From NCBI GenBank assembly GCA_004298905.1, contig SCTK01000004.1, forward strand, positions 62,001 through 126,000: a DNA stretch of 64,000 nt, read 5' to 3'. The notes under the pieces are model-generated. The model did not search any database. It saw only the letters and a list, made by a program, of their open reading frames with translations, and had not been told where the DNA came from. The position numbers and the translations under genes were made by a program. Of the stretch, positions 49,957 through 56,900 are shown piece after piece (within the stretch, counting starts at the first letter, position 1; each line of letters begins with the position of its first letter). Source of the stretch: Burkholderiaceae bacterium (GTDB taxonomy: Bacteria > Pseudomonadota > Gammaproteobacteria > Burkholderiales > Burkholderiaceae_D).

Positions 49957-49998
49957 CGTCAATTCAAAAATGGGTGAACCACAGTCCGCATCCTACCG

Positions 49999-51102
49999 TT
50001 ATTGCGCCGACTTGATGATGCGCCCGTGCAGCGCCTGGATCGGGCGCGCATTGACCGGAAACAATTTGGCGAACACCGCAATCTGTTGCGCGCTCAGCGT
50101 CATCGGTTGCTTGAGCACCATCCACAACACTTCTTCCGAGCAGGGCGGCGTGGTCAGCGAGCCGAAGAATTGATAGTAACGGCCATCCTTGGGCAGCAGC
50201 AGCGCCGGGTCCAGCGTGTCGTTCGTCAGCTGCACGCGATCCTCCACCTCCAGCGGCATGTGGCTCCATACGGTTTGCACTTCACTGTTGGCCGCGCCGG
50301 GTTCGAACAGCACGGCGACCACCGCCAACTGCCCGGCGTCATTCCGATGCACCAGATGCGCCACCATGGCAAAGCCCTTGCCGTTGATGCGCTCCTCGGA
50401 CGGATGATGAAAATGGAACTGCACCAGCTTGTAACGGCTGCCGCGCACCGTCAGAAAATTGTCGCTGGAAAAATCGAACTGCACCGTGTGACCATTGTTG
50501 ATGACCGACCCTTTGGAGGGATGGTAGTCAAACGTCAGCGCCTCCATCGCTTCAATCGGCAGCGTGTCCTGATCCTGGATATCAATCGGCGATTGCCGTT
50601 GGCCGCTGCCGCACAATTGATTTTCGGGGGCGAGCGTAGACCAGAAGATCGGGCCGGTCGGACCATCGTAAGACCAGTGCGCATGCCCGGACACCGCCTT
50701 TTCCGTTTTGCCCGCAGCAGGTTTTTTTCCGCTCACCAGCGGATCGGTCGAGCTGCCCGCTTCCTCGCTGCGATGCGCCGCAGCGCGTGCCGCGAAATAA
50801 TCGTTGGCCGTGATGGGGCGGCGTATTGTCGGCGCAGGTGCGGGCGCTGGGGTTGCGGTCGAGGGTGATGCCGCTGCGGGTGCGGCCTTCGCCGCAGGCT
50901 CCGCTTTTTCAGCGTCGCCGCTGGCGTGAATCTGCACCGTCGCCGCCTTGTCGTTGCCCATAGTCTTGATCAAGGCACGCAGCTTCTCCCCCGTGGCAGA
51001 AGCACCCGTAGAAGAAGCCGGGGCTTCCTTGACAGACTCCTCCGCACCAACCGGCAGCCAGAGCCAGGCCAACACAAAAACGATCACACGCAATAAATGC
51101 AT
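49999..51102 (-). CDS. Periplasmic alpha-carbonic anhydrase with long linker
   Basis: 367 aa. The signal peptide ends in PVGA (about residue 20). A low-complexity Ala/Pro/Glu linker of about 70 residues (AAKAAPAAASPSTATPAPAP) leads to the catalytic domain from about 137. The zinc ligands are His230, His232 (QFHFHHPSEE) and His249 (AHLVHRND); QRQSPIDI and TTPPCSEEV are further family marks. The enzyme interconverts CO2 and bicarbonate in the periplasm. The ATG at 51102 has GGAGGG upstream. The Glu that normally precedes the third histidine (ExH) is replaced by Val. Confidence 0.95.
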   Translation of the reverse strand: MHLLRVIVFVLAWLWLPVGAEESVKEAPASSTGASATGEKLRALIKTMGNDKAATVQIHASGDAEKAEPAAKAAPAAASPSTATPAPAPAPTIRRPITANDYFAARAAAHRSEEAGSSTDPLVSGKKPAAGKTEKAVSGHAHWSYDGPTGPIFWSTLAPENQLCGSGQRQSPIDIQDQDTLPIEAMEALTFDYHPSKGSVINNGHTVQFDFSSDNFLTVRGSRYKLVQFHFHHPSEERINGKGFAMVAHLVHRNDAGQLAVVAVLFEPGAANSEVQTVWSHMPLEVEDRVQLTNDTLDPALLLPKDGRYYQFFGSLTTPPCSEEVLWMVLKQPMTLSAQQIAVFAKLFPVNARPIQALHGRIIKSAQ

Positions 51103-51161
51103 ATTCCCTCCGTAATGAGGAAATATCGGCATCACGGAAGGGTTTTATAGGGTTCGATGCC

Positions 51162-51187
51162 CCCTTCTCCCGCAGGCGGGAGAAGGG
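51162..51187. repeat. Hairpin repeat, left copy
   Basis: A 12-bp perfect stem cccttctcccgc/gcgggagaaggg with a 2-nt centre. Its sequence is nearly that of the second hairpin at 51290-51313, and both belong to the cccttctcccgc class of intergenic repeats. The rest of 51103-51464 holds no gene. Confidence 0.7.
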
Positions 51188-51289
51188 TTGGGGATGAGGG
51201 CGTTGGCATTGGCTCGATACCAAATCAGAAGAAAAAACGGCACCGCCACCCACACCATCCAAGTGTGACGCAACATACCTCAAGAAGCG

Positions 51290-51313
51290 CCCTCTCCCGC
51301 CTGCGGGAGAGGG
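51290..51313. repeat. Hairpin repeat, right copy
   Basis: An 11-bp stem ccctctcccgc/gcgggagaggg with a 2-nt centre, 102 bp after the left copy. Together the two hairpins bracket about 100 bp of non-coding DNA. Confidence 0.65.
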
Positions 51314-51464
51314 GACGCGAGCAGTGTGCCTATGAGTGCCACACAACATCGCTGGGATGCAATCCTCGCATTGGGTGAGGGTGTTTTGTTAGGCCGGTTG
51401 GTTGCTGGGTTTTCAAGCCAGCTACGGGCTCATCTAGGTTCTCTTATCTCGGCCCAACGTAAAG

Positions 51465-51950
51465 CTATGCATCATCATTGAGACCCTTGATTTCACATTC
51501 CCAAAACGTACCTTCTTGCAATGCATTTGAATCAATTCTCGCCAGGGCAGATTTGAAACGTGCAGAACTGTCTTCGCCCATATACGCTAACAAACTTTCT
51601 GCCAGCTGAGTAACACTCGTATTCACAAATTGGCGTGTTTTAAAGTGATCTTCATGATCAAGGAGGGCTACTTCGCCAGAGTTTTTCTCGATGCAGATAG
51701 GGTTACCGGCACCGTCATATCCAATAACCAGGAACGGGGCCAACCTGATTTTGTCGTCGGCCGTCCAATCCTCCGGGGATGCAAACACTTCGAAAACAGG
51801 AGCAGGCTTTGCTGCAGCGCTGAACGTGACGCATGGCGCGGCTGACATTGGCAAAACATCTGAACCAAAAATAACCATTGGGGACGCAATTTCTTCAAGG
51901 CCAAGCTCTCGTTCTCTCTGTGCCCAACGATCAGCGAACGGCTTAGTCAA
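51465..51950 (-). CDS. SUKH-like (SMI1/KNR4 superfamily) immunity protein
   Basis: 161 aa, soluble. The middle segment PFLVIGYDGAGNPICIEKNS with LLDHEDHFKTRQFVNTSVTQ and LAESLLAYMGE is the pattern of SUKH-type immunity proteins, which neutralise contact-dependent or secreted nuclease toxins. The start is a TTG at 51950, supported by AAGGAGAA 6 nt upstream. No toxin gene is adjacent, so it is either an orphan immunity gene or the remains of a cassette. It lies in the accessory stretch 51.2-53.9 kb. Confidence 0.65.
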   Translation of the reverse strand: MTKPFADRWAQRERELGLEEIASPMVIFGSDVLPMSAAPCVTFSAAAKPAPVFEVFASPEDWTADDKIRLAPFLVIGYDGAGNPICIEKNSGEVALLDHEDHFKTRQFVNTSVTQLAESLLAYMGEDSSARFKSALARIDSNALQEGTFWECEIKGLNDDA

Positions 51951-52030
51951 TTAGTTCTCCTTAAAAATCGGTACCAGAGCCACATTTTTTGAATGCAGAA
52001 ATAATGTGCCACTGCTTTCCTGTTCCACCT

Positions 52031-52702
52031 TCAATCCTTGAAGGCTGCCAGTATTTGAGCAGACCTTTGCTGATCCATCTGCATCTTGTTCAGGCACTCC
52101 GATAAATAACCGGCATCGCTCATCAGGTCGATGGCCTTGCCGTAGGCTTTTTCAGCGCTCTCGCCATAAGCCTGCCGCACTTTCTGCCAGGCTGCTTGAG
52201 GAATGGGCCCCCATTGGTTGATCATCATGGCCAGGTCGATGATGTCGCGGCTGGCTGTCGCGATATCGTTGTAACGGTCTGCGTTGGCCAGCAACTTTTC
52301 GGCGTACATGTCGCTGCGTGACAATACCGGCACCCCAAGCTGAGGGTCGAGATTCCCCTCGAGTGCAATCCGGCCTTCCTGCACGATTTCGAATTTGATT
52401 GGCACATGGTCCACCTCAACAAAGGTGCGAATGCCGTAGCGGTCGGCGCGTACATCACGCAGCAGCTTGACCGGTTTCCGCATCAAGGCAGTCAACCCGC
52501 GATCGAACACCAGACTGCGCAATTGACGATACCCTGCGCTGGAAGCACAGAGGAAATCGACATCGACCGATTCGCGATATTCATCCAGCAGCAGCACAAT
52601 GGCGGTGCCGCCTGCGAAATAGCATTGACATTGCGTCAGCAGATCGCTGTCGAGGTTGCGCAGCAGGGTGTGGATGCGTTGATGATGAGGGCGCTTGAAC
52701 AT
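52031..52702 (-). CDS. AbiEii/AbiGii-type nucleotidyltransferase (toxin of a type IV-like TA pair)
   Basis: 223 aa. The nucleotidyltransferase fold is marked by CYFAGGTAIVLLLDEYRESV followed by the metal-binding aspartates in DVDF (D47, D49), then KFEIVQEGRI and a DMYAEKLLANADR helix. AbiEii-family enzymes are toxins of abortive infection and toxin-antitoxin systems, and some transfer nucleotides to tRNA. The upstream 66-aa gene ends 4 bp before this start, so the two form a pair. The antitoxin is not AbiEi; the partner is a much smaller protein of unknown fold. Confidence 0.85.
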   Translation of the reverse strand: MFKRPHHQRIHTLLRNLDSDLLTQCQCYFAGGTAIVLLLDEYRESVDVDFLCASSAGYRQLRSLVFDRGLTALMRKPVKLLRDVRADRYGIRTFVEVDHVPIKFEIVQEGRIALEGNLDPQLGVPVLSRSDMYAEKLLANADRYNDIATASRDIIDLAMMINQWGPIPQAAWQKVRQAYGESAEKAYGKAIDLMSDAGYLSECLNKMQMDQQRSAQILAAFKD

Positions 52703-52706
52703 GGGC

Positions 52707-52907
52707 TCAGTTGTTGAGCACACCGCCGCCGTATTGCTGCTTGAGCCGTTGGATCAGATCTCGTTCATCCCGGGTGAGCGTTTCTTCTTCGATGAAGCGC
52801 CAGTTCGCTTCGTAAAGCGCGAGCGCCTCCGGCTCATCGATCAAATCGTCCGGACGGCGATTCCATGCGATCAGCCGGAGTTGGGGATAGTGGGCAATGT
52901 GCAGCAT
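52707..52907 (-). CDS. Small partner protein of the AbiEii-type gene (66 aa)
   Basis: 66 aa: MLHIAHYPQLRLIAWNRRPD, then IDEPEALALYEANWRFIEEE and RDERDLIQRLKQQYGGG. The frame is open further upstream, but this ATG at 52907 begins the conserved-looking part. Proteins like this, of about 60-70 aa, occur directly upstream of AbiEii nucleotidyltransferases. It probably acts as antitoxin or as a regulator of the pair, which is inference from position. It contains no classic HTH. Confidence 0.65.
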   Translation of the reverse strand: MLHIAHYPQLRLIAWNRRPDDLIDEPEALALYEANWRFIEEETLTRDERDLIQRLKQQYGGGVLNN

Positions 52908-53073
52908 GATGCTTTGACTATACCGAGGCAGTGCAACTGCTGCAAGTGATTTTTGCCAGACCTTACTCCCGCACGCGCTCGATCCCTTTTGACCATTACG
53001 CGCTATGCGCTGCCTTAAAAGAAATGCGAAAAGGTACCTGGTGGAATGATGGGTTAGCGAGCATTGGTGCCCA

Positions 53074-53898
53074 TCATGCGACGTACTCGATGGGGAAACG
53101 GTTTGAATGTTCTGGAAAAAGGTCACACATGAAGAAGGTCTGCCGGTAACGTTCAAATGCAATCGGTTCGTGACTGATGAACCTCTTCATGAGTTCATCC
53201 ATCGATGGGAGCGGCGAAACACCAGACTCTCGGAGGCGCTCCATCATTCGCCTCCCTCGCATCTCAAGAGCCGCGGCGGTGCAGTGTTCACTTTTGTAGC
53301 TGCGCCACACCTTCTCAAATAGATCTTGTGAGGTCGTACGCCAAAAGAGTCCCGGAGTTGTTGCTTGATCCATGGCTTGCACGGCATTTGCAGGCGCCTT
53401 AGTACTGAGGAGTGTTAAGTACAGGGCAGCGTACACCTTTTCTAGTTCCCCAGCGGTCAGTGTACGAGTTGGGCCGATCAGGCCCCAGAATGGAGCTCGG
53501 TCGCCCATTCGCATTACCTTGGCTAGTGCTCCGCCGGTACAAGCAGCGACTGCAACCATTAGGTTAAGACCGGTCGCTACGTTTAGCTCAGTGATGGGAA
53601 CTTTCAGTTCGTCCCAGTCGGCGAGAGAACCATCTGCAAACTGAAAGCCATCTTCATCGCCATGGCACTCGATGTGCAGCATTGGAATGATGTCGCGTCC
53701 CTCTGCATCATTCTTGGACATCAGAACGCACTGGAAAAATTCAGCAGCATTTTCTACTCGTACGTAACGAACCGCCGGTGAGGGAGAGTATGCAGTCGCA
53801 TATGTCTCCAAATCCTCGAACAAGCGCTTCGCGGTGTTGTACTCACCTGTAGGGATCGAATCTACCACCAAGATTTGGTTGAAGCGGTTGGAATCCAT
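53074..53898 (-). CDS. Protein with caspase/CHAT-like His-Cys dyad
   Basis: 274 aa, soluble. The first 160 residues look like a caspase-hemoglobinase fold: a strand-rich start (QILVVDSIPTGEYNT), then LHIECHGDEDGFQFADG with a candidate catalytic His79 followed by Gly, and LMVAVAACTGG with candidate Cys120, then WGLIGPTRTL. In CHAT and caspase proteases the order is a hydrophobic strand, HG, about 40 residues, strand, C. The C-terminal third is helical and ends in FPIEYVA. It stands alone on its strand next to the AbiEii pair. No close family is recognised, so the protease call is inference. Confidence 0.55.
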   Translation of the reverse strand: MDSNRFNQILVVDSIPTGEYNTAKRLFEDLETYATAYSPSPAVRYVRVENAAEFFQCVLMSKNDAEGRDIIPMLHIECHGDEDGFQFADGSLADWDELKVPITELNVATGLNLMVAVAACTGGALAKVMRMGDRAPFWGLIGPTRTLTAGELEKVYAALYLTLLSTKAPANAVQAMDQATTPGLFWRTTSQDLFEKVWRSYKSEHCTAAALEMRGRRMMERLRESGVSPLPSMDELMKRFISHEPIAFERYRQTFFMCDLFPEHSNRFPIEYVA

Positions 53899-53979
53899 GC
53901 AAGCTCGCTAACTAGAAGTAGACGTCGCAATGTACCGGGGTCGATTTTTCCTCAAGCAAAAAAACGACCGCCGACCGCC

Positions 53980-56900
53980 TTACACCAGCACCCGCTCAAT
54001 CCCACCCTGATTCGCCTGGCCCACATATTCCGGCAGCCAGTTTTCACCGAGCAGGTGTTTGGCCAGTTCGACGACGATGTAATCGGCGTCGAGGTCGGCA
54101 TCGTCGTTGAAGCGCTTCAAGCCTTGCAGGCACGACGGGCAGGAGGTGAGGATTTTGACCTCGCCGTTGAAACCATCGGTGCGCAGCTTGTCGGCGCCCT
54201 TGCGCATTTCTTCTTCCTTGCGGAAGCGGACTTGCGTGGAGATGTCGGGGCGTGTTGCCGCTAGCGTGCCGGATTCGCCGCAGCAGCGTTCGTTGAGCGC
54301 GATCTTCGTGTTGTCGTTCGTTGTGATCAATGCGTTCACTGTCTTGAGCGGGTCTTGCTGTTTCATCGGCGAGTGGCAGGGGTCGTGGTACATGTAGTGC
54401 ACGCCCTTCACGCCTTCGAGCTTGACGCCTTTTTCGAGCAGGTATTCGTGGATGTCGAGGATGCGGCAGCCGGGGAAGATCTTGTCGAATTCATAGCCCT
54501 GCAATTGATCGAAGCAGGTGCCGCAGGACACCACCACGGTTTTGATGTCGAGATAGTTCAGCGTGTTGGCAACGCGGTGGAACAGCACGCGGTTGTCGGT
54601 GATGATCTTCTCGGCCTTGTCGAACTGGCCCGCGCCACGCTGCGGATAGCCGCAGCACAGATAGCCCGGTGGCAATACCGTTTGCACACCAGCGTGATAG
54701 AGCATCGCCTGCGTGGCGAGGCCGACTTGCGAGAACAGGCGCTCCGAACCGCAGCCGGGGAAATAGAACACCGCTTCCGAATCCGAAGTCGTGCGCTTGG
54801 GGTCGCGGATGATCGGCACGATGTTGGCATCTTCGATGTCGAGCAGCGCGCGTGCGGTGCGCTTGGGCAGATCGCCCGGCATTTTCTTGTTGATGAAGTG
54901 GATCACCTGCGTTTTGAGCGCAGGCTTGCCCAGCGTGGCGGGCGGGTGGGCGGTTTGTTTTTTCGCCCACTGTTTGAGTACGGTGTTGCCCAGCCGCTGT
55001 GCCTTGTAAGCCAGGCCCAGCGCGGCTTTATAGGCTTTGATGGTGCGCGGGTTGACGGTGTTGAGGAAGAACATCGCCGCTGCCGAACCGGGGTTGAACG
55101 ATTTCTTGCCCATCTTGCGCAGCAGGCTGCGCATGTTCATCGACACGTCGCCGAAGTCGATGTCGACCGGGCAGGGCTTCTCGCACTTGTGGCACACCGT
55201 GCAATGGTCGGCCACGTCTTCGAATTCTTCCCAATGCTTGATCGAGACGCCGCGTCGCGTCTGCTCTTCGTAGAGGAAGGCTTCGATCAAGAGCGAGGTG
55301 GCGAGAATCTTGTTGCGCGGTGAATAGAGCAGGTTGGCGCGCGGCACGTGCGTGGCGCACACCGGTTTGCACTTGCCGCAGCGCAGGCAATCCTTGATCG
55401 AGTCGGAAATCGAACCGATGTCGGACTGCTGCATGATCAGCGATTCGTGTCCCATCAAGCCGAAGCTGGGCGTATAGGCGCGCTGCAGATCGCCGCCGGG
55501 CATCAGCTTGCCCTTGTTGAAGCGGCCTTCCGGGTCGATACGCTGCTTGTATTCCTGGAACGGACGCAATTCTTCCGCGGTGAGGAATTGATACTTGGTG
55601 ATGCCGATGCCGTGCTCGCCGGAAATTACGCCGTCCAGATCGCGCGCGATTTGCATGATGCGCTCGACCGCGGCTTCAGCTTCTTTCAACATGCCGTAGT
55701 CGTCGGAGTTGACGGGGATGTTGGTGTGCACATTGCCGTCGCCGGCGTGCATGTGCAGCGCGACGAACACGCGCGCGCGCAGGATGTCCTTATGAACCGC
55801 CGCGCATTTGTCCAGCACCGGCACGAAAGCCGCACCGTTGAAGATCGCGGCCAGCGGCGCCTTGACTTCGGTCTTCCACGACACGCGAATGGTGCGGTCT
55901 TGCAGCAGGTCGAATACGCGCGCGTCCGGCTGGCGGGCGAGACGTTGTTCGAACGCCGCTTGCAAGGGTTGCAGGCCCAGGTGCAACAACTCGGCCTTGG
56001 CTTGCACCAGCGGCGTGTCCATCTGGTGCAGCAGATATTGCCAGCGCGCGCGCGTCTCGGTCAGCAGCTTGCGCGCTTGCGCGGGGCGGTCGCCGAATGC
56101 TTTTTCGCGCGGCAGCGCGTCGAGTTCGGCATCGCCGCTTTTGGCGAGCGGCAATTCGCTGCCGAACACTTGATCGAGTGCGTGCAGCAAGCGCAACTTG
56201 TTGCCGATCGACAGTTCGATGTTGATGCGCTCGATGGCGTCGGTATATTCGCCCATGCGATGCAAGGGGATCACCACGTCTTCATTGATCTTGAAGGCGT
56301 TGGTGTGCTTGGCGATTGCCGCCGTGCGCGCGCGGTCGAGCCAGAACTGCTTGCGCATTTCCGGCGACACGGCGACAAAGCCTTCGCCGGTGCGTGCATT
56401 GGCCAGCCGCACCACTTCCGAGGCGGCATGCGCCACGGCGTCGGCATCGTCGCCGACGATATCGCCGATCAACACCATCTTGGGCAAGGCGTGCGGCGAC
56501 GCGCTGCGTTTCGATTTGGTGGCATAGCCGACCGCGCGCAAATAGCGCTCGTCCAGATGTTCCAGCCCAGCCAGCGTGACGGGAATGAAACCGGTCTGTG
56601 GATTGGCCTTCTTCGATTCGCCGTCGAGGTAATCCTTGATCTCGACAATCGAGGGAATCGCATCGCGCGCCTGTCCGAAAAATTCCAGACACACTGTGCG
56701 CGTGTGTTTGGGCATGCGGTGCACCACCCAGCGCGCAGCCGTGATGATGCCGTCGCAACCTTCTTTCTGGATGCCGGGCAGACCAGCGAGAAACTTGTCC
56801 GTTACATCCTTGCCCAGGCCGGTCTTGCGCAGCGACTGGCCGGGGATTTCGATGCGCTCGGTGCGCAATTCTTTCTTGCGATCCGGCGAAAACCATTTCA

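Follow-up and report, generated by a model that had tools for sequence, protein, structure and literature searches.

A predicted caspase/CHAT-like protease encoded by a former one-gene integron cassette, probably a self-contained bacterial defence protein

Caspases are proteases that kill animal cells. To our knowledge, the caspase-like immune proteases described in bacteria either act within multi-gene systems (CRISPR type III, type IV Thoeris) or are parts of large fusions with sensor domains. SAVED-CHAT (PMC11229360) and the type IV Thoeris protease (PMC12847820) are activated by messenger molecules, and the TPR-CHAT protein of Craspase has a protease dyad, H585 and C627, whose residues are 42 positions apart (PMC9729208). 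Integrons are known to store compact anti-phage cassettes (PMC12409362). Here, we describe a 274-residue bacterial protein that probably represents a new type of self-contained defence protease. Its gene lies in a 64,000-nucleotide stretch of a Burkholderiaceae bacterium (assembly GCA_004298905.1, contig SCTK01000004.1, positions 62,001 to 126,000), referred to below as the window:

53074..53898, minus strand: caspase/CHAT-like protease gene, 274 aa (open reading frame, conserved family, fold model, matches to SAVED-CHAT and caspases)
53662..53664, minus strand: codon of the predicted catalytic His79 (invariant in 17 of 17 homologues; aligns with His355 of PDB 8tl0 chain A)
53539..53541, minus strand: codon of the predicted catalytic Cys120 (invariant in 17 of 17 homologues; aligns with Cys402 of 8tl0 chain A)

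The open reading frame starts with ATG. Direct searches of the protein against Pfam, NCBIfam, PADLOC and PDB sequences returned no match, in agreement with an earlier sequence-only reading of this DNA, which had assigned the chain to no known family. Relatives were sought in whole genomes, plasmids and GTDB contigs, and about 22 diverse members of a patchy, previously undescribed family were gathered. The closest (79–86% identity; L026, L027 and L028) were found in three other genomes, from Oxalobacteraceae and a Methylobacter MAG, followed by a copy at 55% identity in a gammaproteobacterial MAG (L029). Relatives at 20–33% identity occur in Undibacterium, Herbaspirillum, Variovorax, Pseudomonas, Cupriavidus, Burkholderia, Rhizobium, Klebsiella plasmids and others. 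In a tree of the family, the window protein clusters with L026, L027 and L029. The family was present in about 10 of 393 genomes of the same taxonomic family and in 3 of 398 genomes sampled across the phylum, the window's own genome included; when the phylum search was repeated with the family profile, the same genomes were recovered and nothing was added. Between the window gene and two copies with 79–82% identity, dN/dS was 0.13–0.15, a low ratio indicating that the protein has been kept by purifying selection.

Members of the family are currently labelled as hypothetical or, wrongly, as HMG-box proteins. We regarded HMG-box annotation in the Klebsiella homologues as spurious, the match being weak and seen in two members. 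Two weak matches from the first genome search (G131 and G245) were located in Mur-ligase-like open reading frames and were dropped. Four shorter members of about 200–250 aa (L044, L046, L047 and L048) form a separate clade in which the match to the family stops near profile residue 210–225; they adjoin housekeeping-type genes (for example prmA, dsbB/tldD and ribonucleotide reductase).

An AlphaFold model built on nine homologues had a mean pLDDT of 85.6 and was compared with the PDB using Foldseek and VIA-align. The best match was the SAVED-CHAT structure 8tl0 (E 3e-6), which superimposed on residues 3–189 of the model with Z 16.4 and an rmsd of 2.6 Å over 169 residues; caspases, a metacaspase and legumain followed at Z 12–13. 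The model thus has the caspase-hemoglobinase fold of clan CD proteases (Z 12–16 over all these matches), with the conserved His and Cys following successive core strands. A structure prediction and fold search of this kind had been named as a check by the sequence-only reading, and it returned the caspase/CHAT-like fold, with His79 and Cys120 in the expected places. When the family profile was compared with PDB sequences, SAVED-CHAT was the only clan CD protein found (E 0.05), with its His355 and Cys402 in register, and 2 of 17 members weakly matched Peptidase_C13 (E 5e-4), which is another clan CD family.

The window protein had no match to the Pfam CHAT family (PF12770) at E 1, and this family was absent from those listed for the 17 members. 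A profile-profile comparison with 12 Pfam CHAT proteins gave a weak match (probability 18, E 0.0014) that kept the Cys motif in register. The modelled protein is therefore one with a caspase/CHAT-like fold and dyad, yet it is outside CHAT as Pfam models that family. In the predicted layout, the protease fold occupies residues 1–190 and is followed by a C-terminal helical bundle (190–274). The bundle, comprising the last 85 residues, was predicted with a pLDDT of 89 when modelled alone. It matched no ligand-binding fold, and its best candidates among known folds, none above Z 4.7, were discarded as noise for helical bundles.

The positions of the two presumptive catalytic residues were as the sequence-only reading had described them: His79-Gly80 closes the strand formed by residues 72–77 of the model, and Cys120 comes after the strand 114–118. 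The claimed CHAT-like spacing also held, with 41 residues separating His79 and Cys120, compared to 42 for H585 and C627 in Craspase TPR-CHAT (PMC9729208). Conservation in homologues, the other check that had been named, was complete for both. In an alignment of 17 members reaching down to about 20% identity, the sole invariant columns were M1, H79, W95, N106 and C120. A few members have HS or HA in place of His-Gly, or lack the first His of the motif. The catalytic placement of His79 and Cys120 derives from structural and profile alignments, and Cys120 is also in register with the Cys of the Pfam CHAT profile. Taken as predictions from the model, the caspase/CHAT fold and the His79-Cys120 dyad are well supported, and the motif His79, Trp95, Asn106 and Cys120 can be used to annotate the family.

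The sequence-only reading had missed that the gene originated as an integron cassette. Comparison of the flanks of the close copies, using the core-site consensus from PMC12901181, revealed the following sites in the window:

53906..53912, minus strand: integron core site R' (GTTAGCG), the left cassette boundary, 14 bp before the ATG; the same in L026 and L028
53040..53059, minus strand: attC remnant, consisting of R'' (CGCTAAC) and 13 nt (CGCTAACCCATCATTCCACC), without the half that bears L' and R'

R'' lies 14 bp past the stop codon in the window, L026 and L028, so that complementary core sites tightly enclose one open reading frame. Complementarity of R' and R'' at 7 of 7 positions was seen in the window, L026, L028 and L046 (where the pair is GTTAGGC/GCCTAAC) and at none of 251 other open reading frames; the core sites of L027 had decayed. 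(L047, from the clade of shorter members, probably bears integron core sites as well.) The L026 and L028 copies, 82–86% identical to the window gene, have a complete 67-bp attC at the downstream site, the bottom strand of which forms a hairpin with an unpaired base. The L028 attC had a folding z of −5.5, with none of 200 shuffles equally stable, and the L026 attC had a z of −2.35. The window remnant equals the intact L028 attC at 19 of 20 nt and diverges beyond, and the corresponding stretch does not fold (z 0.4 and −1.0). No structured RNA was found with Rfam.

An integron integrase gene lies about 170 bp from the L028 cassette in the opposite orientation, the cassette being located after the integrase gene. 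The product matches TIGR02249 (E 2e-70, model positions 74–265) and includes the stretch KYPNASKEWGWQYVF, which we take to be the typical mark of integron integrases. The gene contains one stop and one frameshift in this low-coverage MAG. In the window's genome, no integron integrase was found, the model giving only XerC/D-like partial matches, and there was no second copy of the right flank. Integron arrays without an integrase are known (PMC12444791). With its attC truncated and no integron integrase in the genome, the cassette is stranded; judging from its sequence, the window copy is a former cassette that is no longer mobile. The flanking sites lend good support to arrival of the gene in this bacterium as a one-gene integron cassette; it may have come in through integrase-mediated insertion at a secondary site, or an array may have been lost. 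Since the boundaries enclose a single open reading frame, the mobile unit is one gene, and this points to a protein that acts on its own or together with factors widespread in hosts or phages.

The cassette is part of an interval of accessory genes in the window:

49963..53979, no strand assigned: about 4 kb of accessory genes between HIT-family and FAD-oxidase genes that are directly adjacent in 10 relatives
51465..51950, minus strand: SUKH-4 immunity-like gene, outside the cassette (Pfam SUKH-4, E 3e-9)
52031..52723, minus strand: AbiEii toxin gene, outside the cassette (PADLOC E 9e-92, Pfam E 8e-24)
52707..52907, minus strand: AbiEi-like antitoxin gene, about 66 aa, outside the cassette (PADLOC AbiEi, E 4e-27)

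In addition to the SUKH-4 gene, the AbiEii/AbiEi pair and the cassette, the interval contains a carbonic anhydrase gene. In the 10 relatives, the HIT gene begins 0–15 bp past the FAD-oxidase stop codon. The GC3 values are mixed: 0.545 for the cassette, 0.44 for the SUKH-4 gene and 0.67 for AbiEii, with flanking genes at 0.72–0.79, which suggests a small hotspot of several independent acquisitions. No sigma70-type promoter was found in 51300–54100, and the protease gene is preceded by a terminator-like site that separates the cassette from the oxidase gene; expression in this genome is therefore uncertain. Elsewhere in the same genome, TIR_2 matches cluster with a QueC/Cap9-like protein (Cap9, E 2e-13) on contig C25 (L082:6074-11322), which may mark an additional defence locus.

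An AbiEii pair and an immunity-like gene had been proposed as neighbours by the sequence-only reading, and PADLOC and Pfam bore out the AbiEi/AbiEii and SUKH-4 assignments. From these neighbours it had suggested a defence or cell-death effector. That idea gained from the defence neighbourhoods of relatives, described below, and from the cassette origin; however, AbiE and SUKH do not contribute to it, and were rejected as functional partners because they are common to no relative. An all-against-all comparison of the relatives' neighbours likewise revealed no conserved operon partner.

The L026 copy adjoins Cap4-type nuclease, AAA and OLD-like genes, which we read as Lamassu and Gabija; L033 adjoins an OLD/GajA-like gene, L029 and L020 adjoin CBASS with IrrE/CapP-like genes, L030 and L042 adjoin restriction-type helicases, and L032 adjoins a TniQ transposon gene. 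Altogether, 251 PADLOC models were matched by 137 neighbours, compared to 11 models by 135 control proteins from 16 regions chosen at random in the same genomes, although the models are redundant (one protein may match many), so the counts show a direction rather than a ratio of genes. The leading models among the neighbours were capP, LmuB, GajA and CBASS phospholipases. This neighbourhood evidence comes mostly from relatives at 20–55% identity, and genes within defence islands need not themselves be defensive.

Several single loci were distinctive. One relative (L045:4133-17561) lies inside a type I restriction operon with hsdM, a YhcG-type nuclease gene, hsdS, a KAP NTPase gene and hsdR, in which hsdS overlaps the protease gene by 8 bp. 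A Bacteroidia relative (L034:940-3790) is located 131 bp downstream of a gene for a 647-aa TIR protein whose TIR region is related to SpbK (E 3e-10), possibly a TIR-caspase pair like that of type IV Thoeris. In two Klebsiella phage-plasmid-like replicons of about 110 kb (L018 and L019), a divergent relative, annotated as HMG-box or hypothetical, lies between the replication initiator and a metallophosphoesterase gene.

The caspase-type dyad, the C-terminal helical bundle and the defence-rich setting make a latent, infection-activated protease the best reading of the protein. On balance, we favour a self-contained caspase/CHAT-fold cysteine protease that was spread as a cassette, is now stranded, and protects against phage by abortive infection. 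In the mechanism that we propose, a single 274-aa cysteine protease with the predicted His79-Cys120 dyad and a small C-terminal helical bundle would stay latent in healthy cells. An infection cue would switch it on, either via the C-terminal bundle or by dimerisation, and the active enzyme would cleave one or more host or phage proteins. Growth or phage production would then be halted, leaving the phage cycle incomplete. Active proteolysis, regulation by the bundle, a trigger, a substrate and a defence outcome are what we infer for this protein, and defence by proteolysis is the leading explanation among those considered here. Integron cassettes bear many functions other than defence.

More tentatively, the 274-aa protein could constitute a one-gene anti-phage system that itself detects infection and then kills or arrests the cell, and, having been spread by a cassette, would be the smallest mobile form of caspase-type immunity. 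A single-gene cassette with a caspase fold and dyad suggests that one small protein can combine sensing with execution, making it a convenient model for infection-triggered switching of caspase-fold proteases.

The main alternative is an effector protease that other defence systems of the cell activate through a second messenger, either TIR-derived ADP-ribose cyclic products or CBASS nucleotides. Activation would resemble that of type IV Thoeris or SAVED-CHAT, with the C-terminal bundle as the binding site of the messenger. The nearest solved fold is indeed that of messenger-activated SAVED-CHAT, L034 follows an SpbK-related TIR-domain gene, two relatives adjoin CBASS operons, and TIR-like open reading frames occur elsewhere in the window's genome. 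However, the protein shows no SAVED, CARF or SLOG-like domain, the bundle resembles no ligand-binding fold, a messenger-making gene is not conserved beside the protease gene, and the cassette copies are single-gene. We consider this alternative unlikely.

Still more doubtful is a protease that serves a mobile element outside defence, by countering host defences, maintaining the element (toxin-like addiction) or regulating it. Such a role would fit the divergent relatives in Klebsiella phage-plasmid-like replicons, beside the TniQ transposon gene and in integron cassettes, but searches with three different members found no relative among 50,697 phage records, IMG/VR scans found none either, and no paired antitoxin-like gene is common to the members. 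That the caspase fold is catalytically dead and acts in binding or as a scaffold, as the few variant His motifs might hint, is very improbable given that every one of the 17 members has both His79 and Cys120 and that dN/dS is low.

The defence protease that we favour can be set beside four described systems. With SAVED-CHAT of type III-B CRISPR-Cas (PDB 8tl0) it shares the caspase/CHAT fold, the His/Cys register and a context of bacterial immunity. Unlike SAVED-CHAT, with which it has about 15% identity, it has no SAVED nucleotide-binding domain fused to the protease and no CRISPR operon, and consists of an N-terminal protease domain and a C-terminal helical bundle encoded by a single-gene cassette. 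TPR-CHAT (Csx29) of Craspase, from type III-E CRISPR, is similar in its caspase-like fold and dyad spacing (PMC9729208), whereas the present protein, of 274 aa only, lacks TPR repeats and has no gRAMP or CRISPR partner in its vicinity. The type IV Thoeris protease, compared by description only (PMC12847820), is likewise a caspase-like bacterial protease in a defence setting, and the relative L034 adjoins a TIR gene as well; however, no TIR gene lies beside the window copy or the cassette copies L026 and L028, and one was found upstream of L034 only. The literature searched contained no caspase-like integron cassette, the original reports of anti-phage cassettes being outside its reach, so that overlap is possible. 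In being compact and single-gene, with core sites and attC, the cassette resembles the anti-phage cassettes of Vibrio chromosomal and mobile integrons (PMC12409362), and it extends the set of integron-borne defence genes by a proteolytic candidate.
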